The position numbers and the translations under genes are program-made. The notes beneath the pieces are model-generated. The model saw only the letters and a list, made by a program, of their open reading frames with translations. It searched no databases and was not told where the DNA came from. This document shows positions 7,151 through 33,371 of a stretch of DNA of 41,011 nt, piece by piece (position 1 is the stretch's first letter; every line of letters begins with the position of its first letter). Source of the stretch: Candidatus Iainarchaeum sp. (GTDB lineage Archaea; Iainarchaeota; Iainarchaeia; Iainarchaeales; GW2011-AR10); the NCBI GenBank assembly GCA_016198165.1, contig JACQJF010000052.1:1-41011 (forward strand), in the 5' to 3' direction.

Positions 7151-8341
7151 TCAGTGGTTTACATAAAACAATATCGTTGGGAGTATGAGGAATGCCATGC
7201 AGCAGCTCCGGTTGACTTTGCTTGAAACCGCTAAAAGCCCGATGCAGGTTGCAGTCAGGAGCGCGATTAACCCGAGTGGGCCGGCAAGCAGGAGAATCAG
7301 TGCGAGTATGAATGCAAGCGTTGCCCTGGTCAGGAGGGCGTAGTCTGTTTTTTCGAATTTTTTCACGGCGTGGCCTGCGATTATTTCGGTTGCAAGGCCC
7401 GCTAGTCCGCCTGCCGTGACTGCGGCTGCCATTGCAAAGAAGAGTGTTTCGCTTGTGAGCGGGAGTGCCTGTTTTACAAACACTGCCGTGCCTGTGCGCG
7501 TTTTGCCTATGAAGTAAAGCGCTGCAATGCTTGTCACATAGTTTGCTGTCGTGATTCCGCCTGTTAAAAGGAGGTAGCGGGTGCGGCTTGGCTTTGCCGA
7601 GAACTCGCTTGAGGCAAGGATTGCCTCGTTTGGCCCGATGGCGGGCAGGAACACCGTGAAGCAGGAAGCGATGCTTGACAAGAACCCGGCTTTGAGTGCT
7701 TTTCCCGAGTGGATTTTTTTTGCCGCGTAATTTTGTTTTGGGAGGGCGCTTTTCTGTGAAAGGGCAATGAGGAGCATGGGCATAGTGAAAAAACCGGTTA
7801 CGAGTACGAAGAGGTTGCTTTGGAAAAGCGAGTTGTTCAAAAGCGCTGCACCGCTCAGGCCTGCAAGGGCGACAACAAGGAGTGTGAGCAGTTTTTTCTC
7901 CAGGGTTTTCTCCCTCGCTATCATGAAAACGAGGATTCCTGCAAGGGCAACCGGCGTGAGTGGGGCAAAGTCATTGAAAGTTTTTTCAAGCAGTTTTCCC
8001 ATGAACGGTGTCAGTGCAACTGAAAACAACAATGCGGAAAGGCCGCCTGCTATTGTCAGCCTGATTGCGTGCAGAGCCATGCCTTTTTTTGCAAAAAAAT
8101 GCCCGGGTAGCACTGCGAGGGCCTTGTCCTCGCTTGGGATTCCAAGGAGCGTGGCTGGGATAAAGTTGACAAAAGAGTGTGTGATGCTTAAAGCAATGAC
8201 TCCGAAGGCGAAATCTGCCTGGGTTTGTGCGGGAAGCGTGAAAAACAGTGCAAGCAGCGTGTTCACGTGCAGTCCCGGGACAAGGCCTGTCACGAGGCCT
8301 GCTCCGACCCCCAAAAGAACCACGAGGATTGTTTCACTCAA
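7151..8341 (-). CDS. TctA-family / DUF112-type integral membrane protein
   Basis: 396 aa polytopic; MSETILVVLLGVGAGLVTGLVPGLHVNTLLALFF typical of the archaeal TctA-like family. Confidence 0.75.
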   Translation of the reverse strand: MSETILVVLLGVGAGLVTGLVPGLHVNTLLALFFTLPAQTQADFAFGVIALSITHSFVNFIPATLLGIPSEDKALAVLPGHFFAKKGMALHAIRLTIAGGLSALLFSVALTPFMGKLLEKTFNDFAPLTPVALAGILVFMIAREKTLEKKLLTLLVVALAGLSGAALLNNSLFQSNLFVLVTGFFTMPMLLIALSQKSALPKQNYAAKKIHSGKALKAGFLSSIASCFTVFLPAIGPNEAILASSEFSAKPSRTRYLLLTGGITTANYVTSIAALYFIGKTRTGTAVFVKQALPLTSETLFFAMAAAVTAGGLAGLATEIIAGHAVKKFEKTDYALLTRATLAFILALILLLAGPLGLIALLTATCIGLLAVSSKVNRSCCMAFLILPTILFYVNH

Positions 8342-8699
8342 TTTTTTCCACTTCTTGCGCGATTATTTCCTGCTCGTTCTCGTATTTTTGCGCCCTTCCA
8401 ATTACGCGCACAAAGCCTATGGTGCCTGTTGCCTTGAGGTCCTCTTTTTCCGGGTTGAATTTCACGATTTTTATGCTTCCTGTGTGGTCTGTAAGCGTGA
8501 AAAAAAGGGTGTTTTTTGACACAAAGGCATTGGTTGCTTTGCCTTCAAGCAGGGCTTTTTTGTTCTCGGAAAGCTCGGAAGCCCCGGTGGCAGTTGTTTT
8601 TACAGGCTGGCTCTGCAGGTCCGCCAGAAAAAGGCCTGCCATCCCGATTAAAGAAACCACCGCGAGTGCGGCCCTGAGGTGGGAAGGTGAAATGTGCAT
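8334..8699 (-). CDS. membrane-anchored OB-fold (nucleic-acid-binding-like) protein
   Basis: N-terminal TM then TNAFVSKNTLFFTLTDHTGSIKIVKF...VRVIGRAQKYENEQEIIAQEVEKIE, OB-fold-like; overlaps downstream TctA-like gene. Confidence 0.6.
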   Translation of the reverse strand: MHISPSHLRAALAVVSLIGMAGLFLADLQSQPVKTTATGASELSENKKALLEGKATNAFVSKNTLFFTLTDHTGSIKIVKFNPEKEDLKATGTIGFVRVIGRAQKYENEQEIIAQEVEKIE

Positions 8700-8736
8700 T
8701 CAGAAGAAAATGGTGCAGAAAAACAAATAAAAAATA

Positions 8737-8752
8737 TTCGTCAATTGACGAA
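8737..8752. promoter_or_regulatory. perfect palindrome TTCGTCAATTGACGAA upstream of the OB-fold gene
   Basis: Same 20-mer (TATTCGTCAATTGACGAAAA) occurs at 25249-25268; next to a TATA-like stretch, 37 nt from the ATG at 8699. Confidence 0.75.
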
Positions 8753-8782
8753 AATAATGTTAATGTTTCTTTTGCCGGTTTG

Positions 8783-8881
8783 TTGCGGACGCAAGTTTGG
8801 CTTTAAGCCAAACAGCGGTGTGAACGGACGCAAGGGCTGTTGAGCGAAGCGAAACGCCCGCGGTGTGAACGGACGCATACC
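8783..8881. repeat. tandem GCGGTGTGAACGGACGCA units separated by hairpins
   Basis: GCGGACGCAAG-[TTTGGCTT T AAGCCAAA]-CAGCGGTGTGAACGGACGCAAG-[GGGC...GCCC]-GCGGTGTGAACGGACGCATACCG. Confidence 0.7.
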
Positions 8882-8883
8882 GT

Positions 8884-9234
8884 TCATGGGCACGTGTCTG
8901 GCAGAGTGCCGTTCATGGTAAGTTCAACGTTTAGCCCTGAGGCCTGTTCTGCCTGGGTTTCCATGTTTTCCAGTTCCTGCCCCAGGTCCAGCCCTTGTGG
9001 GAGTGTCTGGAGGTTTATGTTCATTGTAGCCCCGCATACAAGATATTCGAGTTTTTCCGTCATTGCGTTTTGGTTCAAATCGGAGGCTTTTTCGTAGAAG
9101 CTTTCTTTGACGGTTGCAAGCGCGACAGTGGTTTTTGAAAGGCTTGAAAATTCCCCTGCAATGAAAATGGTTAGTATGAACACTACGGGGAGCGCCAGGA
9201 GGAATTCAATGCTTGACTGGCCTTTTGTCATCAT
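8884..9234 (-). CDS. class III signal peptide protein / pilin (locus 2)
   Basis: MMTKGQSSIEFLLALPVVFILTIF. Confidence 0.8.
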   Translation of the reverse strand: MMTKGQSSIEFLLALPVVFILTIFIAGEFSSLSKTTVALATVKESFYEKASDLNQNAMTEKLEYLVCGATMNINLQTLPQGLDLGQELENMETQAEQASGLNVELTMNGTLPDTCP

Positions 9235-9275
9235 GCGGCAATCAACTTTCCATAGAGCAATTTTTTTTTCCCAGT

Positions 9276-9794
9276 TTATGTTTCTATGTTTCCGGTAATC
9301 GTGACTTCGGCGTCGTTTTTTTCCACTTTCACGCCGGTGATTTTGCCCTTTTCATCCCCCCAGATGGGGAAGCTTCCGAGCGTGCACGTGAAATTAAAGC
9401 CGCTTACCGTGTTGAAATCCTTTGAGCACTCGGTTCCTTCAGGCATCTCATTTCCGCCGTCGCGCTCATCACACGCATAAACGGGTATTCCGAGGGAAAG
9501 GTTGTAGTCAAAAGATATTGTCGCTGGCATGCCGACCGAGGTGATATTGCAGTCTATAAATGTCCGCGCGGGGACGTAGACCCTGATTGTCTGTCGTGTT
9601 TTCTCGCCGCTTAGCGCCACTTCGTTTGCGGTGCTGAGGATTTTTTCCGCTGCAAGCCTTGCCTGGCTGATGCCTGCTATTTCTTTTGCCGTCTTTGCTG
9701 ACAGGTCGACGTTTGGGAGGATTATGACGGTGATGTATAAAAGCATGAGGCTGATTATCAGCAGGTATTCTATGGAGATTTGTCCTTTCCGCAT
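9276..9794 (-). CDS. class III signal peptide protein / pilin (locus 2)
   Basis: MRKGQISIEYLLIISLMLLYITVII; start reset to the ATG at 9794. Confidence 0.82.
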   Translation of the reverse strand: MRKGQISIEYLLIISLMLLYITVIILPNVDLSAKTAKEIAGISQARLAAEKILSTANEVALSGEKTRQTIRVYVPARTFIDCNITSVGMPATISFDYNLSLGIPVYACDERDGGNEMPEGTECSKDFNTVSGFNFTCTLGSFPIWGDEKGKITGVKVEKNDAEVTITGNIET

Positions 9795-9798
9795 TTTT

Positions 9799-10908
9799 TC
9801 AGAACACCACGTTAAGCACAATATCGCCGGTTGCCTGCAGTATGATGTATGCTGCAAGTATTGCGGGCACAAAAGGCGTGCTTTCCTTTATCCTGATTTC
9901 TTTTTCGATAAGCCCCATTGAGGCAAGTTTCTGCAGTTCATTTATCTGTTCAAGCGTCAGGCCGTCTGCCTGTGAGCTTGAAACGATTGTCCTTGCGCTT
10001 GGAGCCAGCATTTCTTTTAGGGCCTCTACATTATTTTCCTTTACGTGCTTTAAAATGCTTTTGATTGAAAGTTTTTGTTCTGTGACCCGGCCGTTTTTTT
10101 CCACGAGCGTGACTGCGGTAATCATGCCTTCCTCAAGCTCATTTACCATGATTTTTTCCCCAAGGCGGGTTCTTGCAAAAAAAAGAAGCTTCACGATTGA
10201 AACAAGTGCTGTTCCGAGCGTGAAAATGAATCCTGCCTCCACAAGCACCGAGTTGTCAAGCAGGAACCCTGTTGCGAAAAGGGCAAGGGAAATTGGCTTG
10301 GAGGTTTTTTTGGCGAAAAAAAACAGGCAAAGCATTGCGGCAATGGCTGCCCAAAAAGGCAGGCCGAGGTTTCTTGCAATCGTGTCTGTTCCTGCTGCGG
10401 CCAGGGCAAAGAAAAAGGACGTAGTGGCTGTTTTTGCGAGTGTTTTTTTCAGCTCGCCTATGGCCTGCGTGTCTTTGGCGGTTTTTTTGAGTGCAATTAG
10501 GGTCCCGAGGGGGAGCATGGCGTAGACGCTGTAAATGAAAAGCGACAGTGAAAAGATTGGCAGGGCCGTGGTTGAAAACAGTTCCCCCTGCAACCCAAGG
10601 AGGTTTCCAATGGCCCTGTGGTTGACGGGGTTGAGGGCTGCAATGCCCGTGAAGAGTTTCACGTCCCCGCCTGCCCAGAAGCCGAGTTTCCAGAGCGCAA
10701 GTGAGCCTGCAAAAGTCGCAGCTGCCGCAAGGAAAGAGTTAATCGCGTACGAACTGTCCCCTGTAGAAACCGAGTAAAACGCGCTTACACCCAACCCAAT
10801 TATTATCATGCCATAGGAAACCCAGTCCGAGACGATTCTTTCCCGCAGGTCAGTGTAGGTTGCAATCAGCAAGCCGGCAAGTGTTATAGTGAAGAGTAAA
10901 AGTTCCAT
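9799..10908 (-). CDS. archaeal prepilin peptidase (A24 family, FlaK/PibD/EppA-like)
   Basis: TDLRERIVSDW and GGDVKLF (GxGD) catalytic motifs in a polytopic protein, flanked by pilins. Confidence 0.88.
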   Translation of the reverse strand: MELLLFTITLAGLLIATYTDLRERIVSDWVSYGMIIIGLGVSAFYSVSTGDSSYAINSFLAAAATFAGSLALWKLGFWAGGDVKLFTGIAALNPVNHRAIGNLLGLQGELFSTTALPIFSLSLFIYSVYAMLPLGTLIALKKTAKDTQAIGELKKTLAKTATTSFFFALAAAGTDTIARNLGLPFWAAIAAMLCLFFFAKKTSKPISLALFATGFLLDNSVLVEAGFIFTLGTALVSIVKLLFFARTRLGEKIMVNELEEGMITAVTLVEKNGRVTEQKLSIKSILKHVKENNVEALKEMLAPSARTIVSSSQADGLTLEQINELQKLASMGLIEKEIRIKESTPFVPAILAAYIILQATGDIVLNVVF

Positions 10909-11064
10909 AATTTTTCAACTTATTTATTCTTTGGCCGCAAGCTTTTAATTCATGAACGGAGAGCGGGAACTGTTTTTTCCCTGGCCAGACGTTTCAAAAA
11001 TCAGTTGTTCAATCCTTTTGCCCCTGGAAAGAAATCACGCGTTAAAAATGCTATGCGTAATTTA

Positions 11065-11352
11065 TTAATCTGCGTTTGGGGGTGTGCAAAGTGATTGTGC
11101 TTCCACTTCGCATGCGTTTGTAGTTATGGGCCAGACACAATCACATGACGTTGAACCGACAACTACTTCGGAGTTCCCGCACGCCGCTTGGGTCTTGAAG
11201 CCGGCGCATAATGCTTTGATTGCGTTGTATTCTGTCTGTTTTCCGCTTGCAGAGCCGACACTTGTTATTATCGTTATTACAATGACTGCGACGAGTATTG
11301 CTCCGCCGATAAGCAAGAGGTACTCAAGTGCTCCTTGTCCTTTTTTGTTCAA
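11065..11352 (-). CDS. short cysteine-rich pilin, class III signal peptide
   Basis: MNKKGQGALEYLLLIGGAILVAV; TTG start; six Cys in the C-terminal part; paralogue of 11713..11988. Confidence 0.85.
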   Translation of the reverse strand: MNKKGQGALEYLLLIGGAILVAVIVITIITSVGSASGKQTEYNAIKALCAGFKTQAACGNSEVVVGSTSCDCVWPITTNACEVEAQSLCTPPNAD

Positions 11353-11452
11353 AATTCAACGCCTCTTTTCTTGTAGTATAATGGACAATTGTGGTATAAA
11401 AACCTGCCTGATTTACCTTACAGTTTTTTTTAGTTGCTCCCAAAGATTGGTG

Positions 11453-11620
11453 TCAGGTCATTATCGCTTCTATTGTGGATGCCCTGTTGTCGAGTATTTT
11501 TGTTTTCACTACAAGTGTGATATTGACAACCTGCAGAGCGACTATGATTACAGCCGCGATTAATATGAGCACGAATGAAAGGGTCAATAGGTATTCAAAT
11601 GAAACTTGTCCGCGCGGCAT
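11453..11620 (-). CDS. 55-aa class III signal peptide mini-pilin (absent from ORF track)
   Basis: Hand translation: MPRGQVSFEYLLTLSFVLILIAAVIIVALQVVNITLVVKTKILDNRASTIEAIMT*; GGTGA Shine-Dalgarno-like motif upstream of the ATG. Confidence 0.82.
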   Translation of the reverse strand: MPRGQVSFEYLLTLSFVLILIAAVIIVALQVVNITLVVKTKILDNRASTIEAIMT

Positions 11621-11712
11621 TTTTTTTCACCAAAAAAAGAAAAAAAGAAAAGGAAGAAATTTTTTCCAAGGGTTTTTTTCTTCCAATATTTCGCTATGAA
11701 TAAATTTTTTTA

Positions 11713-11988
11713 TTAGTCGCCTGCTACACAACTTGCTTGTGGTGTTTCCACGGCGCAAGAAGTGGTCCATATGCAGTCACAAGATGTACTCCCAACTAGT
11801 ACTTCTGCGGCTGTGCAGTTTGCTTGGGTTGCTTTTGAAGCGCATATTCCGCTGATTGCGTTGTATTCTGTCTGTTTTCCGCTTGAGCCTCCCACCTGTG
11901 ATAGTATTGTTATTACTACGACTGCGACTAGGATTGCCCCTCCTATCAGGAGGAGGTATTCTAGTGCTCCTTGTCCTTTTTTGTTCAA
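11713..11988 (-). CDS. short cysteine-rich pilin, class III signal peptide
   Basis: MNKKGQGALEYLLLIGGAILVAVVVITILSQVGGSSGKQTEYNAI; TTG start with GGAGG upstream (track starts at 11994). Confidence 0.85.
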   Translation of the reverse strand: MNKKGQGALEYLLLIGGAILVAVVVITILSQVGGSSGKQTEYNAISGICASKATQANCTAAEVLVGSTSCDCIWTTSCAVETPQASCVAGD

Positions 11989-12021
11989 ATTCAAAACCTC
12001 CCTTTTTCACCTTTTTTTTTG

Positions 12022-12047
12022 AAGCTTATTTTTTAACCGATAAGCTT
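12022..12047. promoter_or_regulatory. inverted repeat AAGCTTAT-N10-ATAAGCTT around a TATA-like sequence upstream of the 11988 pilin
   Basis: 8-bp perfect arms; spacer contains TTTTTTAACC. Confidence 0.45.
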
Positions 12048-12092
12048 GAATTGATGATAAACATGGTTTTTCAAACTATTATTTAAGTCTTT

Positions 12093-12341
12093 TCATTCGC
12101 CGACTTTTTCGGTTGTCTGCTCTATGCCTGTCCTGACTTCCCCTTGCTGGGTGTTGAAGATGTTTTTAAGCGTGATGCCGACAATCATTGCAAGGACAAC
12201 CGCGCCACCGATTAGCAAGAGGGTTTCGACGCTTGCCTGGGCTCTTTTTCCAAGCGGGCCCTTGCGCGAGCCCGCGGCGCGTACATGCCCTGTTTTCAAC
12301 AGGGCGGTAGTATTGTTTTCCATGCCGTCACCAAATTTCAT
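12093..12341 (-). CDS. class III signal peptide protein with an unusually long N-terminal leader
   Basis: MKFGDGMENNTTALLKTGHVRAAGSRKGPLGKRAQASVETLLLIGGAVVLAMIV; start overlaps the upstream FlaJ stop (ATGA). Confidence 0.75.
   Translation of the reverse strand: MKFGDGMENNTTALLKTGHVRAAGSRKGPLGKRAQASVETLLLIGGAVVLAMIVGITLKNIFNTQQGEVRTGIEQTTEKVGE
12259..12313 (-). repeat. double-hairpin dispersed element, copy A (in-frame within the 12093..12341 CDS)
   Basis: AATACTACCG-CCCTGTTGAAAACAGGG-CATGTACGCGCC-GCGGGCTC[GCGCAA]GGGCCCGC. Confidence 0.65.
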
Positions 12342-13285
12342 GCCCCGCCTACAAGTGCCTTTGAAAGGACGCTTGAAGCCGTGTAGGACAGGATTGCAAT
12401 AAACAGTATGATTGGGAAGTATATAATGGTTTTGGAGAGCCTTCCTTCCCTCATGAGCGCCATCATTGCGCTTGCGGCTATTACCTGTGCAACCATGTAA
12501 AACTGCACCCCCAGGTTAATCGTCTCGGCGGCCTTTTGTGCGGCAAGTTTTTCCTCCGGCTTTCCAATGGATGCCGCGGCGTTGATGAGGACGTTGCTTA
12601 TCGTGCCTACGAAACCGAAAATCATTGGAGCCACCACCCCGCCGGCTGCGGTCATGAAAATCACTTGGAGCAGTGTCCTTGTTTTCCTTTCCCTGCCAAT
12701 CTTGTGGGTTTCCCGGACATCGTCGCTGATTTCATCGAGTATTTCCGCAAGCCCCGCCCCTGCCTTGATGGAGTCGATTATTATGGTCACGGTCCTGTTT
12801 ATTATGCGGGAGTCAACGTTGTCCGAAAGGGTCGTCAGGGCGTTTGAAAAATTCTCTCCCTCTTCGAGTTTTCTCAGTATCTCGATGAGTTCTTTTTTGA
12901 GCGGCCCGTACTCGGAGTATGCCACTTCGCGCAGGGCAAACTCGATTGTCCCGCCGCTCTTGAGCGTGTCAGACATCTGCTTTAGGGCATCCGGTAGGTT
13001 TTCCTCTATGCTGTCTACCCTTTGCACTGCTTTTATGTAAGGGTATCCAAGCAGCAGGTCAAGGATGACGATTGTCGTCCCAAAGCCGATGAGCAAAAAC
13101 CCGGGGAGGTAAAAATAGAACATGGCTCCCGCAACCGCGGCTAAAGCCAGGCTTAGCGCTATCCAGATGACCGCGTCTATTTCCAGTTCTATCTGGTCAA
13201 ACATTCTCTGGTACTTTTTCAACGCCCCAATCCGGTTCAAGAACGGGGCCCTGTATGCGAGGTTTAGTGACATTTTTTTTTTCAC
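12338..13285 (-). CDS. type IV pilus assembly membrane protein, FlaJ/TadC-like (T2SS F domain)
   Basis: 315 aa; LPDALKQMSDTLKSGGTIEFALREVA...GEN FSNAL-type T2SSF motifs and TM helices. Confidence 0.88.
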   Translation of the reverse strand: MKKKMSLNLAYRAPFLNRIGALKKYQRMFDQIELEIDAVIWIALSLALAAVAGAMFYFYLPGFLLIGFGTTIVILDLLLGYPYIKAVQRVDSIEENLPDALKQMSDTLKSGGTIEFALREVAYSEYGPLKKELIEILRKLEEGENFSNALTTLSDNVDSRIINRTVTIIIDSIKAGAGLAEILDEISDDVRETHKIGRERKTRTLLQVIFMTAAGGVVAPMIFGFVGTISNVLINAAASIGKPEEKLAAQKAAETINLGVQFYMVAQVIAASAMMALMREGRLSKTIIYFPIILFIAILSYTASSVLSKALVGGA

Positions 13286-14418
13286 ACGCTTGGCTGTATT
13301 GATTTTATGTAATAAATGAGAAACCCTAGGATTCCCGGGAATATCATGGTATATAATGCAAGGATTATTGATGGCGGCATGCTGACACTTGCAATCGGCA
13401 GTCCAAGCGGCGCGTTGAGGATTGTCCCGATTATTGCAATGAATACGGGGATGACGATGGCGCCGAAAATGAATATTACCCCGAAAAAGTTCATTTTTTC
13501 GGCAAAGTCACGGATGCTCAGCTGCAAGTCAAATGACACGTCTTCTGCTATTTCGTTCATGACGTTTGAAAGCTTTCCGCCGGTCTTTAGGGCCCTGATG
13601 ATGTGGAACAAGGCGTTTCGCAGTGACTTTGACTGTGTGCGCAGGGCAAAGTGGCGCAGTGCCTCTTCAGTCCCGGTGCCCTCCTCGATTTCGTTGATTG
13701 TCCTTGCGAACTCCACTGACAACAACCCATAGTTGCTTGAGGCGATTGTTTCAAGTGTCTTGTAGAGGCTTATGCCGGCTCGAAGCTCGGTTGACATGTG
13801 GCGAAGCGCAAACGGGAGTTCCCTGCTTATTTCTTTCCCGCGTTTTTGTGCAATGCTTTTCGGAATCATTAGCACCATTATCAGCGTGAGGAAAAACATT
13901 CCAATGCCTATCGCAAAAGCCAGTGCGATGTCGAATTTGAGTGCAATGCTTGCCACAATTCCAATTGCCGTGGAAACAACAAACGCGAGGCCTGCAATCG
14001 TTACCGAGAGCGCAAGGTACTGCCTTGCGGAATAGTTTACGTTTGCACTGTACAGGTAAAACGCGAGTTCCTTTGAAATGGGGAACCTTTTAACCCCGCT
14101 GATTAATGGTTCAAGGAGGAGCCGTGTTGACAAAAAAATCCTTCCAAGCGTGCTTACAAGCGGGGATTTTATCTCTATGAGCTCTTCAACCGGTTGTGTC
14201 GAGACTTTGACGCTTTCTGTTCCGCTGACCATTCCGCGCAGTTCGTAAATGCTTTCTTTTGCCGGCTCCTGGGCTCTTCCTTCTTCGCGGTATTTTTTCT
14301 TCATTTCGGAGACAATCTTGTCCACTGTTTTTGGGTCAATCCTTAACTGTTCCTCCTGCTGTTCTTTTTTCTGTTTTTTTGATTCCTCGATTTTTTTCCT
14401 GATGTCTTCAAAATTCAT
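13282..14418 (-). CDS. type IV pilus assembly membrane protein, FlaJ/TadC-like (second paralogue)
   Basis: LPFALRHMSTELRAGISLYKTLETIA..., TM helices; start reset to MNFEDIRKK (track starts at 14451). Confidence 0.88.
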   Translation of the reverse strand: MNFEDIRKKIEESKKQKKEQQEEQLRIDPKTVDKIVSEMKKKYREEGRAQEPAKESIYELRGMVSGTESVKVSTQPVEELIEIKSPLVSTLGRIFLSTRLLLEPLISGVKRFPISKELAFYLYSANVNYSARQYLALSVTIAGLAFVVSTAIGIVASIALKFDIALAFAIGIGMFFLTLIMVLMIPKSIAQKRGKEISRELPFALRHMSTELRAGISLYKTLETIASSNYGLLSVEFARTINEIEEGTGTEEALRHFALRTQSKSLRNALFHIIRALKTGGKLSNVMNEIAEDVSFDLQLSIRDFAEKMNFFGVIFIFGAIVIPVFIAIIGTILNAPLGLPIASVSMPPSIILALYTMIFPGILGFLIYYIKSIQPSV

Positions 14419-14425
14419 TTTTTTT

Positions 14426-16132
14426 TCAGCCTGTTGGTTTTTCCTTGTCAATAAAATCGAGGCACATTTGTGTCACCTTGTCCATTGCGTGCGTTTCGTT
14501 GTCTATAAGTTCCTTGAGGAATTTTTCCCTTTTCTTTATTTCTTTTTCCACGCTGTCAACCGTTTTTCCGGAAAATATCGCAACCGCCTTGAGGTACTCT
14601 GAAGAGTTTTTTGTCCTTGAAATCGAGTCGCTTGCAGGGTCATACTGGAATATGGCCACTGTCTTGGTTTTCCCTTCAAGGCTTCCGGCGACTTCGGCTA
14701 TTTCCGTTACCCTGCGTATTGTCCCTTTTTTCTTGTCATGCAGCCTGTGTTCAACGAGGATGAAATCAAGCCCGCTGAGCATGACTTCTGGCACGTTCAT
14801 GGGCGGTGAAACCACTCTCACCACGGTTTCTCTTGGGGAGTTGGCGTGTATGGTGCCAAGGCAACCGGAATGACCCGTGTTAATTGCCGTGAAAAACGTG
14901 AAGGCCTCTGCGTGCCGTATTTCCCCGACGATTATCCTATCGGGCCTCATCCTCAGAGAGTTTTTTGTGAGAATGTCAAGTGTTATTTCCCCCTTGCCTT
15001 CAAGCCCGGGTGGTTTTCCCTCAAGCCTTATCCAGTGTTTTAACGGCAGGTTGAGTTCAGCGGTGTCTTCAATGCTTATTATCCTCTCATAGGGCGGGAT
15101 GAATGCAGCCAGGGCATTGAGGCTTGTGGTTTTTCCACTCCCCGTGCCCCCTGAAATCAGTATGTTTGCGGGTTTTACATTGAGTCCTTCCACGCAGAGC
15201 CACAGGAATGCCCCGACTTCCGTGTTTATAGTGTTTGAGGTTATGAGGTCAATTATGCTGTAGGGGTCTTTGCGGAATTTCCTGATTGTGAGTGTCGAGC
15301 CGTCAACTGACGCGGGTTCAACGGTCGCGTTCACCCGGCTCCCGTCAGCCAGCCGCGCGTCAAGCATTGGGGAGCTTATGTCCACGCGCCTTCCCACGAG
15401 CCTGGCAATCCTATTGACGAGGTCTATTATTTCCTGGTCCGAGTAGAACTCGATGTTTGTGGTCATCATTTCGTATTGCCTGTGGAAAATGTAAACAGGT
15501 TTTTTCGGGCCGATTACCATTATTTCCTCTATTTTGTCGTCGTTTACAAGCGGGTCTATCAGGCCGTATCCGACCATTTCGCGGACCACGGATTCCGCGT
15601 AAAATTCCCACCTGTGCTGGGGTATTCCAAGTTGTGGAGAGTTTTGTAGTATTTCGATTACTTTTTGGTAGTAGACGTTCCGCCTTTCCTGCTGGTCGCG
15701 TATCTTGAAAGGCGCAATTGTAATGAGGCGCGTGGCGGCTTCCTTTATAGTGTTGATTATCGCTTTTTCCGCGGCGGTGGGCCTTGGGACAGGGGTCGTG
15801 TATTCGGGGATGAATTCGCCCTGTACCGTGTATATTTTTGCGTTTCCATAGGACGTGACCAGTTTTTTCTTCCGGTTGTCCTTTTCCTGCTCCCGTGCCT
15901 CTTCAACCTGGCCCTGGGTTAGTGTTTCTGCGGCACCTGTCTTTTGTGCAGGTTTTGGCTCTTCAGCCTTTTTGAAGATTTTTTGCTCTTTTTCGCCTTT
16001 TTTTTCCTTGGAAAAAATTTCAGGGATTTTTTCTTCTTCCGGTTCCACTGGTTTGGGTTCGCCTGCTTCCTGTTCTGCAAGCCTTTTTTTCTTTTTTATC
16101 TTTTCAATCATTTCATCCATGTAATTAGGCAT
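14426..16132 (-). CDS. type IV pilus/secretion ATPase (TadA/VirB11/FlaI family)
   Basis: Walker A ISGGTGSGKTTSLNAL, RMRPDRIIVGEIRHAEA, GHSGCLGTIHANS; start at MPNYMDEM or MDEM (16120); track starts at 16156. Confidence 0.93.
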   Translation of the reverse strand: MPNYMDEMIEKIKKKKRLAEQEAGEPKPVEPEEEKIPEIFSKEKKGEKEQKIFKKAEEPKPAQKTGAAETLTQGQVEEAREQEKDNRKKKLVTSYGNAKIYTVQGEFIPEYTTPVPRPTAAEKAIINTIKEAATRLITIAPFKIRDQQERRNVYYQKVIEILQNSPQLGIPQHRWEFYAESVVREMVGYGLIDPLVNDDKIEEIMVIGPKKPVYIFHRQYEMMTTNIEFYSDQEIIDLVNRIARLVGRRVDISSPMLDARLADGSRVNATVEPASVDGSTLTIRKFRKDPYSIIDLITSNTINTEVGAFLWLCVEGLNVKPANILISGGTGSGKTTSLNALAAFIPPYERIISIEDTAELNLPLKHWIRLEGKPPGLEGKGEITLDILTKNSLRMRPDRIIVGEIRHAEAFTFFTAINTGHSGCLGTIHANSPRETVVRVVSPPMNVPEVMLSGLDFILVEHRLHDKKKGTIRRVTEIAEVAGSLEGKTKTVAIFQYDPASDSISRTKNSSEYLKAVAIFSGKTVDSVEKEIKKREKFLKELIDNETHAMDKVTQMCLDFIDKEKPTG

Positions 16133-16136
16133 AAAC

Positions 16137-16154
16137 GCGTCTAAGATTAGACGC
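16137..16154. promoter_or_regulatory. palindrome GCGTCTAA-GA-TTAGACGC between a TATA-like box and the start of the pilus ATPase gene
   Basis: 8-bp perfect arms, 2-nt centre, TATTAAATATC on the minus strand just upstream. Confidence 0.5.
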
Positions 16155-16175
16155 AATTATGATATTTAATAATAG

Positions 16176-24630: not shown

Positions 24631-24684
24631 CCATTGATTTGTTGGAAAACTTAATTAAAAACATGACACGCAAAAAACCCGCTT

Positions 24685-24698
24685 AAGTTTGCAAACTT
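24685..24698. promoter_or_regulatory. palindrome AAGTTTGCAAACTT next to a TATA-like sequence upstream of the Lrp gene
   Basis: 14-bp perfect palindrome followed by TTTATTAATT. Confidence 0.5.
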
Positions 24699-24756
24699 TT
24701 TATTAATTGTTTGTTCAATTAGTTAATCATTTGGTTTTTGTGGGGGGGATTTTTTT

Positions 24757-25233
24757 TTGCCTGTGTCTGAGCTTGACAAGATTGACCTGCGTATTCTTCA
24801 GAGCCTTCTTTATGACGGCAGGATTTCTTTCAGTGCCATTGCAAAGGAGGTCGGCCTGACTGACGTTGCTATCAAGAAGCGTTTTGAACGCCTCAAGCGC
24901 AAGGGCGTTATAGCGTCAATTTCGGCAAACCTTGACCTCAAGACGCTTGGGTATGAGAACCCTATTTTTGTCCAGATTCGTTCAGAGATTTCAAAAAACA
25001 AGAATCTGGTCAAGAGGCTTCGGGAGTTTGACTCGATTGTGGAGCTTTACCAGGTTCTTGGGGAATACAACCTGCTTGCAAAACTCGTGGTCCCAAACCT
25101 TGAAATGGCTGAAAAATTCATCGAGTCGCTTGGAACACTTGACGGCGTTTTGGACATAAAGGCATCGGTAATCCTTTCTGAACTGAAAAAAACCAATTCC
25201 CTGCCGATTTTTTCGCTCCAAAAAAAACTCTGA
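24757..25233 (+). CDS. Lrp/AsnC-family transcriptional regulator
   Basis: LDKIDLRILQSLLYDGRISFSAIAKEVGLTDVAIKKRFERLKRKGVI HTH plus RAM-like C-terminal domain; TTG start. Confidence 0.92.
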   Translation: MPVSELDKIDLRILQSLLYDGRISFSAIAKEVGLTDVAIKKRFERLKRKGVIASISANLDLKTLGYENPIFVQIRSEISKNKNLVKRLREFDSIVELYQVLGEYNLLAKLVVPNLEMAEKFIESLGTLDGVLDIKASVILSELKKTNSLPIFSLQKKL

Positions 25234-25250
25234 AAAACCCCACAAGCCTA

Positions 25251-25266
25251 TTCGTCAATTGACGAA
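25251..25266. promoter_or_regulatory. perfect palindrome TTCGTCAATTGACGAA upstream of pilin locus 3 (+ strand)
   Basis: Identical to 8737-8752; followed by CTTTTTATTT; 34 nt to the ATG at 25301; immediately downstream of the Lrp gene. Confidence 0.8.
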
Positions 25267-25300
25267 AAGCTTTTTATTTTCTTTGGCTCACCGTTTTTTC

Positions 25301-25480
25301 ATGGTTTCTAGGTTTCATTCAAGGGCACAGGTTTCAGTGGAACTCATAATAATTTTTGCCGCGGTGGTCGCAGTTGCCCTGCTCCTCATAACACAACTCC
25401 AGAAGACAACCAAGGAGGGTTCTGAAGTCATTGAGGACAAGGCAGAAGACATTTTTGACCAGATAAGTGACATAAAGTGA
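25301..25480 (+). CDS. class III signal peptide protein / pilin (locus 3)
   Basis: MVSRFHSRAQVSVELIIIFAAVVAVALLLI; start reset from 25259. Confidence 0.75.
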   Translation: MVSRFHSRAQVSVELIIIFAAVVAVALLLITQLQKTTKEGSEVIEDKAEDIFDQISDIK

Positions 25481-25899
25481 GTGCAGGGAAAGCCCAGTCA
25501 AGCATTGAGTTTCTAATGCTTCTTGCAGCGTCCACGGCAGTCCTGCTTGTCCTCGTCGGGGCCTCCAAGTCAGTGTTTTTTTCCGGGCTTTTTGCACTTG
25601 ACATCCAGACAGCGCAGGGTTTTCTTTCCGAGCTGAACGCAAAATCCGACATGCTCTCTTTTTTCGGCGAAGGCTCAATCCTTCAGGCAAAGGCGAGTTT
25701 TTTCGGTTCCGCGAGGATTTTTTCAGAAGATGGTTTTGTCCTCATCGAGGTAAAAAGCCCGGTTCTTGTGCAGTCAAAACTTCTTTCGCAAAAAACTTCA
25801 ACCGATGTAAACGCTTTTGTCCCTGAAACAAGCGGGCCTGTCAGGGTTGAACTGGTGCGCACAGGGACGGGAGTTTTAATCAAAGACGGTGACCCTTAG
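25477..25899 (+). CDS. class III signal peptide protein / pilin (locus 3)
   Basis: GKAQSSIEFLMLLAASTAVLLVLVG. Confidence 0.78.
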   Translation: MSAGKAQSSIEFLMLLAASTAVLLVLVGASKSVFFSGLFALDIQTAQGFLSELNAKSDMLSFFGEGSILQAKASFFGSARIFSEDGFVLIEVKSPVLVQSKLLSQKTSTDVNAFVPETSGPVRVELVRTGTGVLIKDGDP

Positions 25900-26226
25900 C
25901 CTGACTGGTTTGAGGTTTTCGTCAAGGAAAAAAGTTTCGGAAGAAAACGCCTTTGCCCCGTGGGGGTTTCCTACGGGAATTTTTTCCTCTCCCGCAATTA
26001 TCTCGCCGTTTTTTTCGCCAAAAGCCAGCCTGAAATCTTTTCTCAACTCTTCTGGTGAAACAATCTTTTCTGCCTGCCACACTGCCAATAGGTCGTGGGT
26101 TTTCTGTGCAATTGCAAGGCTTGTGAAATTGTTCATTTCAGGTGCCTCAAGCGTGGAAAGAAAAACAACGATGACGATGAACCCGAGAATGCAGTCAAAA
26201 AGCGCATAATGGCCGTGCCTATCCAC
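25876..26226 (-). CDS. pilin-like protein (locus 3)
   Basis: MDRHGHYALFDCILGFIVIVVFLSTLEA; 3' end overlaps 25477..25899 by 24 bp. Confidence 0.6.
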   Translation of the reverse strand: MDRHGHYALFDCILGFIVIVVFLSTLEAPEMNNFTSLAIAQKTHDLLAVWQAEKIVSPEELRKDFRLAFGEKNGEIIAGEEKIPVGNPHGAKAFSSETFFLDENLKPVRLRVTVFD

Positions 26227-26686
26227 AGGCAGTCACCTCAAGGAGAATTTTCTCATTTTTTTCCAAGTCTACGATGAATCTCTGTGCGGCAAGGCATTCT
26301 GCAAAACTTGTTTTGCCGTAATCAAAGATTGTTTCCTTTTCCCCGTTTTCATGCACCGCCTCTACTTTTTTCACGGTAACTCCTGCGATTTGCGCGTGTT
26401 CCCTGCCTGCATTTCTGAGTGCCTCAAGTGAAATGACGTTTGCCCTCACGCGCCCAAGGAGGGGGTCAAAGACTGCCGCGCCCAGAAAAGGGTTTTCCGT
26501 GTTGTGGTTTTTCACCATTGCGTCTGCAAGGAAGATTGTTTTTCTCCAAAACTCGGCGTTTTTTTCGTTTGCAAGCGTTTTTCCAGCCAGGCTGCTTACC
26601 GAATGAATCATTGCCATGGCTATGAACAGCATGCCGATTAATGCAAAAGCTCCCTGGAAAGAAAAAAGCCCTCCTTTATCCCGCAT
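26219..26686 (-). CDS. pilin-like protein (locus 3)
   Basis: MRDKGGLFSFQGAFALIGMLFIAMAMIHSV; start reset from 26704. Confidence 0.6.
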   Translation of the reverse strand: MRDKGGLFSFQGAFALIGMLFIAMAMIHSVSSLAGKTLANEKNAEFWRKTIFLADAMVKNHNTENPFLGAAVFDPLLGRVRANVISLEALRNAGREHAQIAGVTVKKVEAVHENGEKETIFDYGKTSFAECLAAQRFIVDLEKNEKILLEVTACG

Positions 26687-27023
26687 AGTGTGCCTCCACT
26701 TCAACTTCGATTACAACGCCGTTTTCGTTTGTAGAGATTTTTTTTGCAGGCGCGATTGTCATGGAATTTTTGGCAAAACCGTTTTTTGCCGCCCATATTT
26801 TTTCATCTGCCGCGTGGCATTCTGTTTCAAGCTCCGCGAATTTTCCCCCGCTGTTTGCATAAAACGAGTCGATGAGTGCTGCGCATTTTTCCGCCTCCAC
26901 CTTTGCCCCAAACGCGTAGAACGCGCCTTGGGTTTTTTCATGCAGTGTCGTGGCCGCCTCAAGCCCGAATCCTGTTACAAGGAGCACGATTATTGCCGAC
27001 ATTGTAAAGTCAATGGTGTTCAT
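26676..27023 (-). CDS. pilin-like protein (locus 3)
   Basis: MNTIDFTMSAIIVLLVTGFGLEA; start overlaps the upstream stop (track starts at 27149). Confidence 0.6.
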   Translation of the reverse strand: MNTIDFTMSAIIVLLVTGFGLEAATTLHEKTQGAFYAFGAKVEAEKCAALIDSFYANSGGKFAELETECHAADEKIWAAKNGFAKNSMTIAPAKKISTNENGVVIEVEVEAHYAG

Positions 27024-27562
27024 TTGAGGGCCACTACCGCTGCCATTGAATAGCCGATGGGAAGCATGAATTCGGTTGAATAATTCGGCCCGCTTATCCG
27101 TGCCTTGAAATGCGTGTCCCGCAGAATTCCTCCTGTGAAAAAAAACCATGCAGTGGTGATTCCTTCTTCGCTTATGACAAGGACTGAAGAGGATTCTCCC
27201 AGGATAGTGTCCGAGATTTTTTCTTTTGCCCCATGTTTTTCAATGAAAAATTCCGCTTTTATGCTGCCTGAGTCAAACAGGCCCTGTTCAGAAAGCCAAA
27301 TGATTTTTTCCACTGTTTTTTTCTTTATTTCTTGCGCGTCAAGGTTGTTGTTTTTGATTTCGTTTTCAAGCGCGGTTTTCACCGTGTCGTCGAAAATGTT
27401 TTCCATCTGGGTTCTTGTGAAAGTGACTTTCTCCATTTCAAGTGCCTGTGTCAGGACAGTGTCTGCTTGTTTTTCCGCGTTAAAGCGCGTGTTTTGAAGC
27501 GAGATTGTCGCAGCCAGTGCCGCAAGGGCAATTACTGCAAAGGAAAACCCGCGCCGGTTCAT
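27020..27562 (-). CDS. pilin-like protein, first gene of minus-strand pilin operon (locus 3)
   Basis: MNRRGFSFAVIALAALAATISLQ; start reset from 27604. Confidence 0.65.
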   Translation of the reverse strand: MNRRGFSFAVIALAALAATISLQNTRFNAEKQADTVLTQALEMEKVTFTRTQMENIFDDTVKTALENEIKNNNLDAQEIKKKTVEKIIWLSEQGLFDSGSIKAEFFIEKHGAKEKISDTILGESSSVLVISEEGITTAWFFFTGGILRDTHFKARISGPNYSTEFMLPIGYSMAAVVALK

Positions 27563-27596
27563 CCATGGACTAATGCCTGAAAACAAACTTAAATAT

Positions 27597-27612
27597 TTCG
27601 TCAATCGCCGAA
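27597..27612. promoter_or_regulatory. near-palindrome TTCGTCAATCGCCGAA, third copy of the TTCGTCAATTGACGAA motif
   Basis: On the minus strand TTCGGCGATTGACGAA followed by AATATTTAAG; 34 nt to the ATG at 27562. Confidence 0.65.
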
Positions 27613-27624
27613 AACCGTTTTGTT

Positions 27625-28272
27625 GTGGTTTTTTATTGTTTTTGCCTTTTTAATGTGTTTTACTGGTGTTTTTTGGTGGACAGGGAAAAAAGGGACCTCA
27701 TTGTAAGCTGGCTGACGGTGAGTTTTGCTTTCGCCTGGGCAGGGCCCCAGATTTTTTTTTCAAGCAGGATTTTTGGGGATTTTTTGTTCAATTTTTTTGT
27801 CGTGCTCATAGCCGTTGGCTTTGGTTTTATACTTCATGAGCTTGCGCACAAGTACGTCTCTCTCCATTACGGGGTTCATGCGGAGTTCCGTGCCTGGAAT
27901 TTCGGGCTGGTCCTGGCGGTTTTGTTTGCTTTTCTCACAAACGGGGTGTTCACTTTCGCGGCTCCCGGTGCGGTTTACATTCTTGGCGAGGTTTCAAGGA
28001 AACAGAACGGGATAATCTCACTTGCCGGCCCGCTTACAAACATTGTCATCGGCCTTGCTTTTTCCGCAGTGGCTTTTTTGTTTGCGGGAAGCATTGTGTC
28101 GGAAATAGCTGGGTATGTTGCGTACATAAATTTTTTCCTTGCGGCTTTCAACCTGCTTCCGATTCCCCCGCTTGACGGCTCGAAAGTCATTAACTGGAAT
28201 GCTTTGGTGTGGGCGGTCTTTTTCATCCCGCTTGCGCTCTTCATTTTCCTGCCGGGCTTTTTCGGGTTTTAG
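27625..28272 (+). CDS. M50-family (site-2-type) membrane metalloprotease
   Basis: HELAHK (HExxH) in a TM helix and [13 protein letters not shown]; start uncertain (GTG 27625 or GTG 27676). Confidence 0.88.
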
Positions 28273-31200
28273 CGCACGTAGCTTAGCCTGATTGTGGAGT
28301 AGTTTTTGCGGAACTGGTCGTAGGCGTTCATTACGTCCATGGAAATTGATGGCGGGATTTTTTCAAGGGCGGTGTCGATGTCGCTTTTGGTTACTTCAAG
28401 TGTTTTTCCCCTGTTTTTCTCGATTGCAATGAGGGCGGCTTCGCGTATAACTCCCTGCAGGTCGGCGCCGCTGTAGCCTTCGGTCTTTCTTGCGATTTCC
28501 TCAAGCCTGACGTCTTTCCCAAGGGGGGTTTTTTTCGTGTGCACTTTGAGTATTGAAAGCCTTGCTTTTTCATCAGGGGCCCCGATCATTATTATCTTGT
28601 CTATCCTTCCGGGCCTCAGCAGGCCGGGGTCAATGAGGTCAGGCCTGTTTGTCGCGGCAATGAAGACAACGTCCTTTAGTTCCTCGATTCCATCGAGCTC
28701 CGTGAGCAACTGGTTTACGACCCGCTCGTTTGTGCCCGAGTCGAATGCCTGGCCGCGCATGCTTGCCATTGCGTCAATCTCGTCGAAGAAAATTATTGTC
28801 GGGCTTACTTGGCGCGCGCGGTGAAAAACCTTGCGGATTCCCCGTTCGCTGTTGTGTGCAAAAATGCCGCCAAAACCTGCTATAAAATTCTGGCAGGGTT
28901 CAACTGAAACATCAAAAACATTGTCCGTATACTCAACAGGCACTATTTTTTTCACCAAGTCCCAATAAATATCTGATTCGCATAGTTTCCAGAGTTCGGA
29001 GTATTGTTGTTTTTGGCTATCCACCATAACTAGCGCTTCGCGCACTTTTCGGAGGCTGACTGTTTGATTGTTTGCATAACTGACAAATGCCTCTCTCAGA
29101 AGATTTTTGATTTTTTCATTAACCGGAATTGCATTGCCTCTTTTCCATTGTACTTCCATTATGTAGTTCTGGAGCGCGTTGTTACGGTGAGAGTCTATAA
29201 ATCCGGCAGCTTGGAATTTTTTCAGGTTTTCAACTCCAAAAATCTGTACCCTAAAGCTTATGCTGCCGGTCCATTCTTTTTTAGTTCTGCAAAAGGCAAC
29301 AATCCCTTGTTTTAGCAACAGATAAAGCAAATCATTGGCCAAAGTTTTGCTGGTTGTAGAAGATTCTACCATTGCGCTATGGCCATTAAATCTGAAGGTT
29401 CCATCCCCACTAAAATAACCCCTCAAGAATGCATTTGTTTGAACATTATTGGAAGTGAACAGCAACCCGGGTATTTTTTTATTAAATGCCCCTGATTTCA
29501 AACCCATTTCTACAAATACATCATGCAACGTTGTACTGTTAATTACAATAGAGTATTCATATTGTGATGCTTGCAATCCTAAGTGTGCAATAGCTTTCAA
29601 TAAGCGGGTGCGGATTTCCTGATCTGCGGCTGTAAACCTCAGCATTTCGTTATTGAATTCACCTTCAGCAATCCATAACCCCGTCATTTCCCAGAAGAAT
29701 TCATCTAACGGCAACAACGCGGGCAAAGAGTGTCTTGCACCTTTACGGGAAATTCTGGCAATGGGCCACTGGGGGGCAAGTTCTGCTGATTTAAGTAATA
29801 GCAAAAAGCTGGCAAGTGAAACCGGCAATTTTTTATCAACTATCTCATACAAAAACTTGGTTTTTTTGTGCAATAATTTGGCAGCCACTGTATATCCTGT
29901 TTTTTTAATGGACTCCACTATTTGTGGGCTTTCAATGAAATACTTTTCTTTTTTTGAAAACAGTTCGGGCAAATTTAAAAACTGGTTTTCAATTGAAACA
30001 TTTGGTAGCTTTGCCGGTATCGCAATAACGCTTTTTCCATTTACTAATTGATCCGGCGTGACAGATTCAATCTCGTTTTCAACCAAGGAAAATACTGAGT
30101 GCTTGTCTGTTACCCTGAGTTTTCTGCCTGTTCTTGTGGTGATCTCAAGCATTTTTCCGTTTAGCGGATGACTAATATAGTCTACGATTTTTGAAAAAAG
30201 AACCCTCCCATCGTTGTCAAACGTAACCACTTGCAGGGGAAGCTTTTCTTCCACGATTTTACCAATTTTTTCCCTGAATATTTTTTTCCCGTCAAAAACA
30301 AGCAATTCTTCCTCATAAGGGAGGCTTTCGCCGACCCAAAGACTTATTAACTGCGGGCCTTTTACCGAAATGAAGTTTGCCTCGCTTTCGGTTGCAACCG
30401 CTTTTGCAAGGAGTGTTTTTCCAGTTCCGGGCGGGCCGTACAACAGTATCCCGCTTGGTGCCTTGATTCCGAGTTTTTTGAAGTCATCAGGCCTTTTCAG
30501 TGGCCATTCAACTGCCTGCCTTAATTCGTTTTTCACGTTTTCAAGCCCGCCGATGTCGTTCCACTGGATGTTTGGTATCTCAATTGTGACTTCGCGCAGG
30601 GCGCTTGGCTGTACATCGCGCAGTGCATCGAGGAAGTCCTGTTTGTTGACTTCAAGGCTTTCAAGGACCTCTGCAGGAATCGTTTCTTCCTCAAGATTGA
30701 TTTTTGGCAGGTACCTGCGCAGTGCTTTCATCGCGGCTTCCTTTGCCAAAGCCTCGAGGTCCGCGCCTACAAAACCATGCGTTATTTTTGCAAAGTTGTC
30801 CAGGTCTACATCCTCTGCAAGTGGCATTCCGCGCGTGTGAATCTGGAGTATTTTTTTCCTGCCCTCTTTTGAAGGAACCCCGATTTCTATTTCGCGGTCA
30901 AACCTGCCGGGCCTTCTTAGTGCCTCGTCTAAGCTGTTGACCCTGTTAGTAGCCGCGATAACAATGACATTTCCGCGCGACTCCATGCCATCCATTGCAG
31001 CGAGAATCTGTGCAACAACGCGCCGCTCGACTTCCCCGATTACTTCTTCGCGCTTTGGGGCAATCGAGTCTATTTCGTCAAAGAAAACAATGCTTGGAGA
31101 GTTTTTTTCCGCTTCCTTGAACACGTCCCGGATTCTTTCCTCGGCTTCCCCGACAAATTTTGAGTTATGCATTACAAGCAATGAATGCCCTGCTAAAAAG

Positions 31201-33371
31201 TTTGAGTAAGGCTCGACACTCAGGTCGAACAATTCTTTATTCCCTTCCTGTTTTATATTTTCAATTTTTGTCCAACTGACTTGCGCTTTTGCAAGTTTTT
31301 GAAGGCGTGCATCAGGCATGAACTGCGTTATTTCTTCCAGTTTTCTTTGTGTCAGGTAATCCCTGCCGGAAATATACCTTTCTGTCGGGCCTTCTGGAAG
31401 GTTTTTGCCGTAAAAATAATTATTTTTTTGCTTTACTTGCTTTAAAAGCGGGGAAATGTTTGGTATTCTTAAGTCATCTCCAGTTTTTTTTCTCCCGGCG
31501 TACCATTTCTTTATAATTGAAAATTTTTCTGTGTTCGACTTTGCCTGTTCTGCAAATATTTCGCGTGAGCGGTTCCCGACAACTACAAGTGCAAGCATGT
31601 CGGAAAATTCTGTCTTCCAAGGGACAATTTTAGTTATAATCCCTAATTTCCTGCAAAGTATTGACAAATCCTCAAGGACATTTCTTGTAATTGAATAGAA
31701 CCGGATGGTCGGGTACCCGCCAGTCCCTTTGCTTGTAGTGCCATCGCCCTCCAAAAAACCGGTCAAAAACTCCATTGTTTCTTTTTTTGTCAATCCGAAA
31801 ATCCATTCCGGCAGTGAATAATTGCCTTTTTTCCCAATTGGCGGGAATTGAAGGGTTTTTTCGAAAAAGTGTTTTAATGCAACAGAGTAACAAAAAACTT
31901 TTTCTTTTTTTATTTTAGGCGTTATTCCAAAGAGTTTTTTTGCAAGATTTGCAAACTCTTGCTTCAGTATTTCATCCCTGTTTGCAAATTGGAGGCCATC
32001 CTGCTGCAGGTTTCCTTCTGAATACATGAGCCCCAAAATCCTCAGAAGTTCTGGCGAACTTTTATTTGGAAGGACAGTAAACTCGTGTTCTTTTATTTTT
32101 CTTCTTTTGGAAGCAATTTTTATCCCGGTTATTTCTTTTTGCTTTCCTTTAAACTCTCCAAGCTTCATTACCCCTTTTTTTGTCCTAATCCACGTGCCTG
32201 CGTCAAAATTTTTCAAATAATTGAATTTCCTGGTTTTTCCTTCAGGAAGCGTTTTGGCTATTGCAATCAGGTCTTTTCTTGAGAGTTCCTTTGCAGTTTT
32301 CCACACGATGCTCCCAAATGAGTCCATGCAGGCAAAAGGATGGTTTTCCGAGCAGACAATTTCTTCCTCAAGCCCTGTTTTTATGCGGAAAGTTTTTGCC
32401 TTTAACCTGGTTATGTGAGTGATTTTTCCCTGCTTTATTTTCAGGTTTTTATCAAGGGAAAAAACAGTTCCAGGTTTTTTTAATTCAATTATTTTCATTT
32501 TTCCATCTTTAATTGTTTTTCCGGTTTTTTCAGCCTCCAAAAAGAGTTCCTTAACCGCTTTTCCTCCGTGCGGGTTGGTGAGAATCCTTGTACCGCCGCC
32601 AACACACATAACTGCCGGGCTGTTGACTGCAATAAAGTGTGCCTGTGTCTCGTTTGCAACCGCTTTTGCAAGGAGTGTTTTTCCCGTTCCCGGGGGCCCG
32701 TGCAGCAAAACCCCCTTGGGTGCGTTTATGCCAAGTTTCGTGAAAATTTCCGGGTGGCGCAGTGGAAGCTCTATCATTTCCCTGATTTTCTGCACCTGTT
32801 CTTCCAGGCCCCCGATGTCCTCGTAGGAAATTTTTTGGAGCTGGTCAACCTCGTCCTTCACCGGCTCTTCGCGGAGGATGAATTGCGTGAAATCAGTGAT
32901 TTTGACGATGCCTTTTGGCGCGGTTTCAACGACCTTGTAGACAAAGCCCGAGCCAAACACGCTTATCCAGACGTTGTCTCCTTTTGCAAGCGGGCGGCCG
33001 ATGAAATTTTTTTTGAGTATCCTGTCATAGCCTGACGCTATTATCCTGACTTCCTGTGTCGGGGCAAGGACGACTCTTTTTGCTTCAGCGTAAATTGCGC
33101 GCCTGATTGTGACTTTTTCCCCAAGGCCGGTTCCAGCGTTGTGGCGTATGAGGTTGTCCATCCTGATTATTGCCTTTCCCTCGTCTTCCGCGCGCGCGGG
33201 CCAGATGACTGCCGCGGTTTTTTTCGTGCCCTCGATTTCAACGATGTCCCCCGAAGTAACGCCAAGTTCTTCTTTGGTTCTCTTGTCAAGGGTTATTATG
33301 TTTCTTCCAACGTGGCTTGGGTCTGGCTCCTCGACGCGCAGCACGACTTCTTTTTTTTTCTGGCCAAGCAT
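28269..33371 (-). CDS. CDC48/VCP-family AAA ATPase precursor with two inteins
   Basis: 1700 aa; two [15 protein letters not shown] Walker A motifs and two FFDEID Walker B motifs; extein about 727 aa after removal of 481- and 492-aa inteins. Confidence 0.95.
28851..30326 (-). other. intein 2 (D2 domain), with LAGLIDADG-type endonuclease
   Basis: [17 protein letters not shown]...TDKHSVF...MTGLWIAEG...[10 protein letters not shown]...[11 protein letters not shown]; Ser1, C-terminal HN, +1 Ser. Confidence 0.9.
31164..32606 (-). other. intein 1 (D1 domain), with LAGLIDADG-type endonuclease
   Basis: [15 protein letters not shown]...ENHPF...[11 protein letters not shown]...[10 protein letters not shown]...[19 protein letters not shown]; Cys1, C-terminal HN, +1 Ser. 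Confidence 0.92.

Follow-up and report, generated by a model that had tools for sequence, protein, structure and literature searches.

The 41,011-nt stretch of DNA analysed here (the window) carries one palindrome ahead of several operons, two of them encoding pilins or pilin-like proteins, and an Lrp/AsnC gene lies close to one of the copies. The question that this locus raises is what the palindrome coordinates and which protein would bind it. A first-pass annotation of the sequence had proposed a local Lrp-type regulon coordinating pilin expression. We followed the element through the window, the source genome and the families of the order.

Position of the palindrome at promoters

The 16-bp palindrome TTCGTCAATTGACGAA is present in the window as exact copies at 8737-8752 and 25251-25266. 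Each copy lies within the 20-mer TATTCGTCAATTGACGAAAA that had been reported at 8735-8754 and 25249-25268, and the near copy described at 27597-27612 is likewise found, as TTCGTCAATCGCCGAA, with two mismatches to TTCGTCAATTGACGAA. Box 1 (25251..25266, plus strand) is perfect, is conserved in the loci L028 (G001), L030 (G002) and L042 (G027) of relatives, and precedes a pilin operon. The TATA-like octamer TTTTTATT lies 4 nt past it (25271..25278, +), and 34 nt past it is the ATG, at 25301, of a class III signal pilin of 59 aa (25301..25480, +; Pfam PF04021, 1.2e-06), which shares its operon with a second pilin-like gene (25477..25899, +; no Pfam match). Box 2 (27597..27612, minus strand, where it reads TTCGGCGATTGACGAA) is flanked by two divergent promoters, and its counterpart in the sister species G001 (L028:6354) is a perfect palindrome. 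On one side is a minus-strand pilin-like operon of four small membrane proteins (divB1-4; 25876..27562, -; no Pfam match), with its TATA-like octamer TATTTAAG at 27588..27595 (-) and its ATG, at 27562, 34 nt from the box; across the box is an M50 membrane peptidase (27676..28272, +; PF02163, 1.4e-12) with orthologues in relatives. Box 3 (8737..8752, minus strand), again perfect, belongs to the OB-fold/TctA operon. The octamer TTTTTATT recurs past it (8726..8733, -), and the ATG, at 8699, of a membrane-anchored OB-fold protein (8334..8699, -; PF01336, 1.5e-08) is 37 nt away; the TctA-like multi-spanning membrane protein that shares the operon (7151..8341, -; PF01970, 9.8e-35) has orthologues in 67 of 91 genomes of relatives. 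The TATA-like box (1-4 nt after each of the three palindromes) and the spacing of 34, 34 and 37 nt to the start codons are therefore as first described, and the identities given to the Lrp/AsnC, class III pilin, OB-fold and TctA genes agree with Pfam.

The type IV pilus machinery of the window (8884..16156, -) comprises a TadE-like protein, a class III protein, a prepilin peptidase, two T2SSF proteins and a T2SSE ATPase, and has no boxes of its own. The intergenic stretch beside box 3 (8790-8900) contains imperfect GGTGTGAACGGACGCA-like repeats. Elsewhere in the window, a CDC48-type AAA ATPase of 1700 aa (28269-33371, -) contains two intein-splicing stretches and LAGLIDADG domains, apparently two inteins.

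Allowing up to three mismatches, the window holds four matches against 0.29 expected, a count reached in 0 of 100 shuffles. We extended the pattern searches to the source assembly (961,484 bp, 67% complete), where up to two mismatches gave five sites against about 0.25 expected under uniform base composition. All five lie 33-37 nt upstream of a start codon; they include an exact site on contig 33, 34 nt ahead of the GTG opening a lipoprotein gene, and a two-mismatch site on contig 22, 33 nt ahead of an XRE-type HTH gene. Up to three mismatches gave nine matches against four for a reversed-pattern control, and because this is near the control level only the best five sites are meaningful. The three-mismatch sites C15:34239, C29:3420 and C39:60 were accordingly set aside as a class, one lying in a coding gene and one in a long ORF; C15:34239, the fourth match of the window and the one within a coding gene, is noise. 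In the source genome, a VapB-like gene is divergent from the lipoprotein gene.

The genome-wide search upstream of start codons that the first-pass annotation had proposed thus returns promoter-placed sites in five of five cases and no random spread. Two identical 20-mers within one window could still reflect chance, or a dispersed palindromic repeat. That origin is extremely improbable, given the promoter placement of all five sites, their genome-wide rarity, and the retention of the box at orthologous promoters whose flanks are not kept; a dispersed repeat is rejected because the flanks differ and the position is fixed.

Conservation and gene content of the putative regulon

Of 98 genomes, 15 contain the motif with no more than one mismatch. 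In the neighbourhoods that we read, the box keeps returning ahead of four targets: the operon of the class III pilin, the OB-fold/TctA pair, the gene for a lipoprotein of ~1370 aa, and the divergent pilin-like operon together with M50. In the relaxed form TTCG-N8-CGAA, its centre drifting, the box stands at these same promoters in further families, and in all about 11 families of the order carry it at orthologous promoters. Family f8, for example, has TTCGGCAAAAAACGAA between pilin and M50 and TTCGTTGAAAAGCGAA ahead of OB/TctA. At the OB/TctA promoter, at least seven of the eight outer bases are present 25-50 nt before the ATG in 24 of the 47 genomes with a callable start, compared with 21 of 3640 background windows. 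The positives group by family (f1, f2, f5, f6, f8, f10, f11, f15, f16 and f18), and no box was found at this promoter in f7, f9, f14, f17 or f19; in two f2 genomes without the OB gene the box stands directly ahead of TctA. The M50/pilin region carries a box in all 14 f8 genomes examined, in most of f10, in both f3 genomes and also in f1, f5, f15 and f16, and a search of this region in f20 found none. Nine genomes, from six families, have the box 33-34 nt ahead of the lipoprotein start. Summed by hand over f1, f5, f15, f16, f18 and G027, the pattern TWCGNYNATNRNCGWA gives 82 matches against 14 for the reversed control, and it shows no excess over that control in box-negative families.

Comparison of upstream regions in relatives, also suggested at first pass, therefore finds the box conserved ahead of orthologues. 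Because the motif is neither randomly placed nor lost upstream of orthologues, neither observation that would speak against the original proposal was made. Promoter position and cross-family conservation give strong support to a shared promoter element that coordinates the OB-fold/TctA pair with the pilin operons. The word "local" is too narrow, since an exact site precedes the lipoprotein gene on another contig, a two-mismatch site precedes the XRE gene, and the putative regulon is order-wide.

Two further observations concern the reach of the element. The large lipoprotein (L027:1083-5198 and orthologues), a box target across families, has a C-terminal membrane anchor and no Pfam match; it is possible that it acts as a DNA receptor or pilus partner. 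In three genomes of family f22, from another order of the class (G086, G087 and G089), TWCGNYNATNRNCGWA gives nine matches against none for the control, and TctA was not found there.

The gene content of the putative regulon has a precedent in Methanococcus maripaludis, where transposon mutants screened for lost natural transformation identified, among other hits, a type IV-like pilus, the OB-fold protein MMJJ_13020 and the adjacent TctA-like MMJJ_13030, as well as the M50 peptidase MMJJ_13210 from one insertion only; deletions of the OB-fold and TctA genes were completely defective in transformation, and TctA is required in a second archaeon, Methanoculleus thermophilus, too (Fonseca et al. 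2023, PMC10133366). The window contains the pilus components of this transformation system (ATPase, membrane protein, prepilin peptidase and class III pilins) and an OB-fold gene adjoining a TctA-like gene. Since pilus, OB-fold, TctA and M50 are all hits of the screen, the box marks a known archaeal transformation gene set, with the large lipoprotein and the second pilin-like operon in addition. We infer that these archaea, too, use the set to take up DNA. The palindrome probably serves a conserved competence-type regulon of uncultured Diapherotrites archaea as its operator, most likely bound by Lrp, and the distribution of the palindrome suggests that one regulator, probably the neighbouring Lrp, switches on the putative DNA-uptake machinery.

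Type IV pili are commonly adhesive, and some boxes stand ahead of toxin-antitoxin genes, so the regulon might instead serve adhesion, biofilm formation or cell contact, with the OB-fold/TctA pair in another role. We regard this as rather unlikely, because OB-fold, TctA, pili and M50 appear jointly in the transformation screen, the OB-fold and TctA deletions are completely defective, and TctA is needed in a second archaeon.

The toxin-antitoxin genes are concentrated in f15 and f16 (G058 and G018), where many further boxes precede them. Some were assigned by Pfam (PIN, RHH_6, MazE), and other genes downstream of boxes in these families were judged by eye to be RHH- or VapB-like. Altogether about 16 antitoxin-like or PIN-toxin genes of unrelated families (PIN, RHH, MazE-like) follow a box in f15 and f16, beside the competence operons (loci L259, L263, L266, L272-L274, L277-L283, L285-L287 and L046). 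So many boxes ahead of toxin-antitoxin genes imply a regulon wider than competence. It is tempting to speculate, though only tentatively, that one regulator runs a switchable competence state, coupling DNA uptake (pili, OB-fold/TctA, M50 and surface lipoprotein) to a toxin-antitoxin battery.

Promoter spacing and candidate regulators

The distance from the palindrome to the TATA-like octamer divides the families into two groups, A (f1, f5, f6, f15, f16 and f18) and B (f2, f3, f8, f10 and f11). The median is 2 nt in group A, where in four cases an octamer too far downstream was picked by mistake, and 12 nt in group B; most values are 0-4 nt, overlapping the BRE, or 10-13 nt. The distance from box to ATG moves in parallel (30-37 against 39-46). 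The binding sites of archaeal Lrp activators are tightly constrained in position and lie just upstream of the BRE (PMC2995911), and a constrained site a few bp upstream of the BRE is what we find. Spacings of 2 and 12 nt differ by one helical turn. Contact between a bound protein and the initiation complex would account for this better than occlusion by itself, which favours an effect that would be mainly activation. A sizeable though lesser chance goes to the box being mainly a repressor operator, at which a dimer over the BRE would block TFB/TBP and keep the regulon off until a signal arrives. The group A octamer, at a median of 2 nt after the palindrome, means that the site must overlap the BRE, and the symmetric placement between divergent promoters also suits repression; against it, the group B box is about 12 nt from TATA and clear of the BRE, with the one-turn spacing. 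Repression through BRE occlusion is possible, above all in group A, and activation remains the favoured reading overall.

The Lrp/AsnC protein at 24757..25233 (+; Pfam PF13404/PF01037) is probably the box binder. It carries an AsnC-type HTH and a RAM domain, and its closest solved structure is PH1519 (1ri7/2cyy), with LrpA and Lrp among its other PDB matches; most of its named relatives come from Candidatus Diapherotrites assemblies, the complete one of archaeon GW2011_AR10 among them. There the Lrp orthologue lies at CP010424.1:1110326-1110784, and boxes are at 859028, 1092952, 1110802 and 1113158. One strong orthologue is present in most genomes of the order, and in most it shares a contig with the M50/pilin locus, at a distance of 6-12 kb. 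Sequence identity of Lrp separates box-positive from box-negative genomes with an AUC of 0.86, against 0.53 for XRE, a comparison in which box status was assigned partly by hand, families share ancestry and phylogeny is uncorrected; Lrp conservation is lower in the box-negative families. Residue 45, in the recognition helix, tells the two box/spacing groups apart better than any other of the 158 Lrp positions (R in 14 of 14 against 1 of 21, phylogeny uncorrected), whereas the best-separating XRE positions lie outside the XRE recognition helix. Lrp is favoured because of the pilin/M50 linkage in most families, the lower conservation in box-negative families and the covariation of residue 45. 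Presence and absence across genomes do not single out the binder, because Lrp and XRE are both near-universal and the assemblies incomplete.

Several observations weigh against Lrp, among them the boxes of G027 and the related half-site ahead of the XRE gene in nearly all families, both described below. No box was found in the Lrp promoters, which have instead a different conserved 13-bp element, TTYG-N5-CWAA; such an own-promoter copy is not strictly required of an Lrp-type regulator, as Ptr2 illustrates. G008 has an Lrp 73% identical and yet no box at M50/pilin, and family f3 has Arg45 despite the second box type. The boxes are mostly single, near-perfect 16-bp palindromes, two occurring only at the XRE promoter, whereas imperfect sites in clusters are the rule among known Lrp targets, the co-crystallised FL11 site being 13 bp (PMC2995911). 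In other respects the box resembles an Lrp-type dyad with conserved arms and an AT-rich centre (in group B, 1.1-1.9 bits in the arms and 0.2-1.2 bits in the centre), although 16 bp is atypical. The Lrp-promoter element, TTYG-N5-CWAAC in its longer form, lies ahead of TATA at about 24680-24710 of the window and in L056, L077 and L190; in the source genome it is a perfect palindrome, AAGTTTGCAAACTT, and possibly an autoregulatory site.

The universal XRE-type HTH regulator (C22:6602-7300 in the source genome; L005:1550-2251) could bind the boxes instead, autoregulated through a related element and also controlling the pilus/DNA-uptake operons. The two-mismatch box lies 33 nt before the XRE start in both the source genome and the sister species, a second, weaker site lies 41 bp upstream, the XRE promoters of nearly all families carry GRCAATTGACGAAAC, and in f1 and f15 this core is similar to the pilus box. 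XRE is the main rival to Lrp, though a quite improbable one. In its element one half is kept and the outer TTCG half drifts; in the pilus boxes both outer arms are kept and the drift is in the centre, so that the conserved positions are not the same in every family, as they would be for one autoregulatory operator. In f8 the two elements clearly differ, which together with the different conserved positions weakens the idea that XRE explains everything. Moreover, the boxes change while the XRE recognition helix hardly varies, and both gene and promoter element persist in box-negative families. The asymmetric GRCAATTGACGAAAC sits right before the TATA of the XRE gene, for example at L111:1452, L119:1450 and L191-L210.

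It is also conceivable, if unlikely, that a third regulator binds the boxes, Lrp being merely a neighbour and XRE merely a target or look-alike. G027, a 75% complete assembly in which no Lrp orthologue was detected, has perfect or near-perfect boxes at four promoters despite that lack; against this stand the order-wide Lrp linkage and the recognition-helix covariation. A possible regulator of this kind, an HTH_10-like gene lying behind a G002 box (L264), is a single case.

On the preferred reading, a homodimeric HTH regulator, most likely the Lrp/AsnC protein, would bind TTCG-N8-CGAA at short-leader or leaderless promoters, where the site adjoins the BRE on its upstream side or overlaps it. 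From there it would coordinate the type IV pilins, the second pilin-like operon, the M50 peptidase, the large surface lipoprotein and the OB-fold/TctA pair, for which a role in carrying DNA across the membrane has been proposed.

Comparison with known systems

Bacterial competence regulons are built on ComK boxes or CRP-S/Sxy sites. The arrangement described here is like them in placing one operator class at pilus and DNA-import promoters, and unlike them in its regulators, transcription machinery and import channel; archaea are reported to be without ComEC (PMC10133366). The closer relative is the M. maripaludis transformation set, which likewise unites a type IV-like pilus, an OB-fold gene followed by a TctA-like gene, and M50 (PMC10133366). 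Here these genes stand under one promoter box, while no regulator or operator is described there, and we found none described for archaeal natural transformation in the open-access literature. The two sets also differ in content: the M. maripaludis list is without the large lipoprotein as such, a box target here, and none of its hits MinD, thermonuclease and archaeosortase turned up under the box.

As a sequence signature, the box would bring the large lipoprotein, the second pilin-like operon and perhaps also toxin-antitoxin modules into the DNA-uptake set of a DPANN lineage. Since the operator is conserved and has a named candidate regulator, the regulation of archaeal natural transformation can moreover be tested in vitro without culturing these archaea.

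Compared with the operators of archaeal Lrp proteins (Ptr2, LysM and Ss-LrpB; FL11/PH1519), the box shares the palindrome with conserved arms, a drifting and often AT-rich centre, and a constrained distance just upstream of the BRE; the candidate regulator is itself a clear Lrp/AsnC member with PH1519 as its nearest PDB entry. It departs from them in being a single near-perfect 16-bp palindrome rather than a 13-bp site (FL11) or a cluster of imperfect sites, and in differing from the element ahead of the regulator gene itself, a difference that has a precedent in Ptr2. The archaeal Lrp activators act on amino-acid or ferredoxin metabolism, whereas the candidate targets here are pilus and putative DNA-uptake genes.
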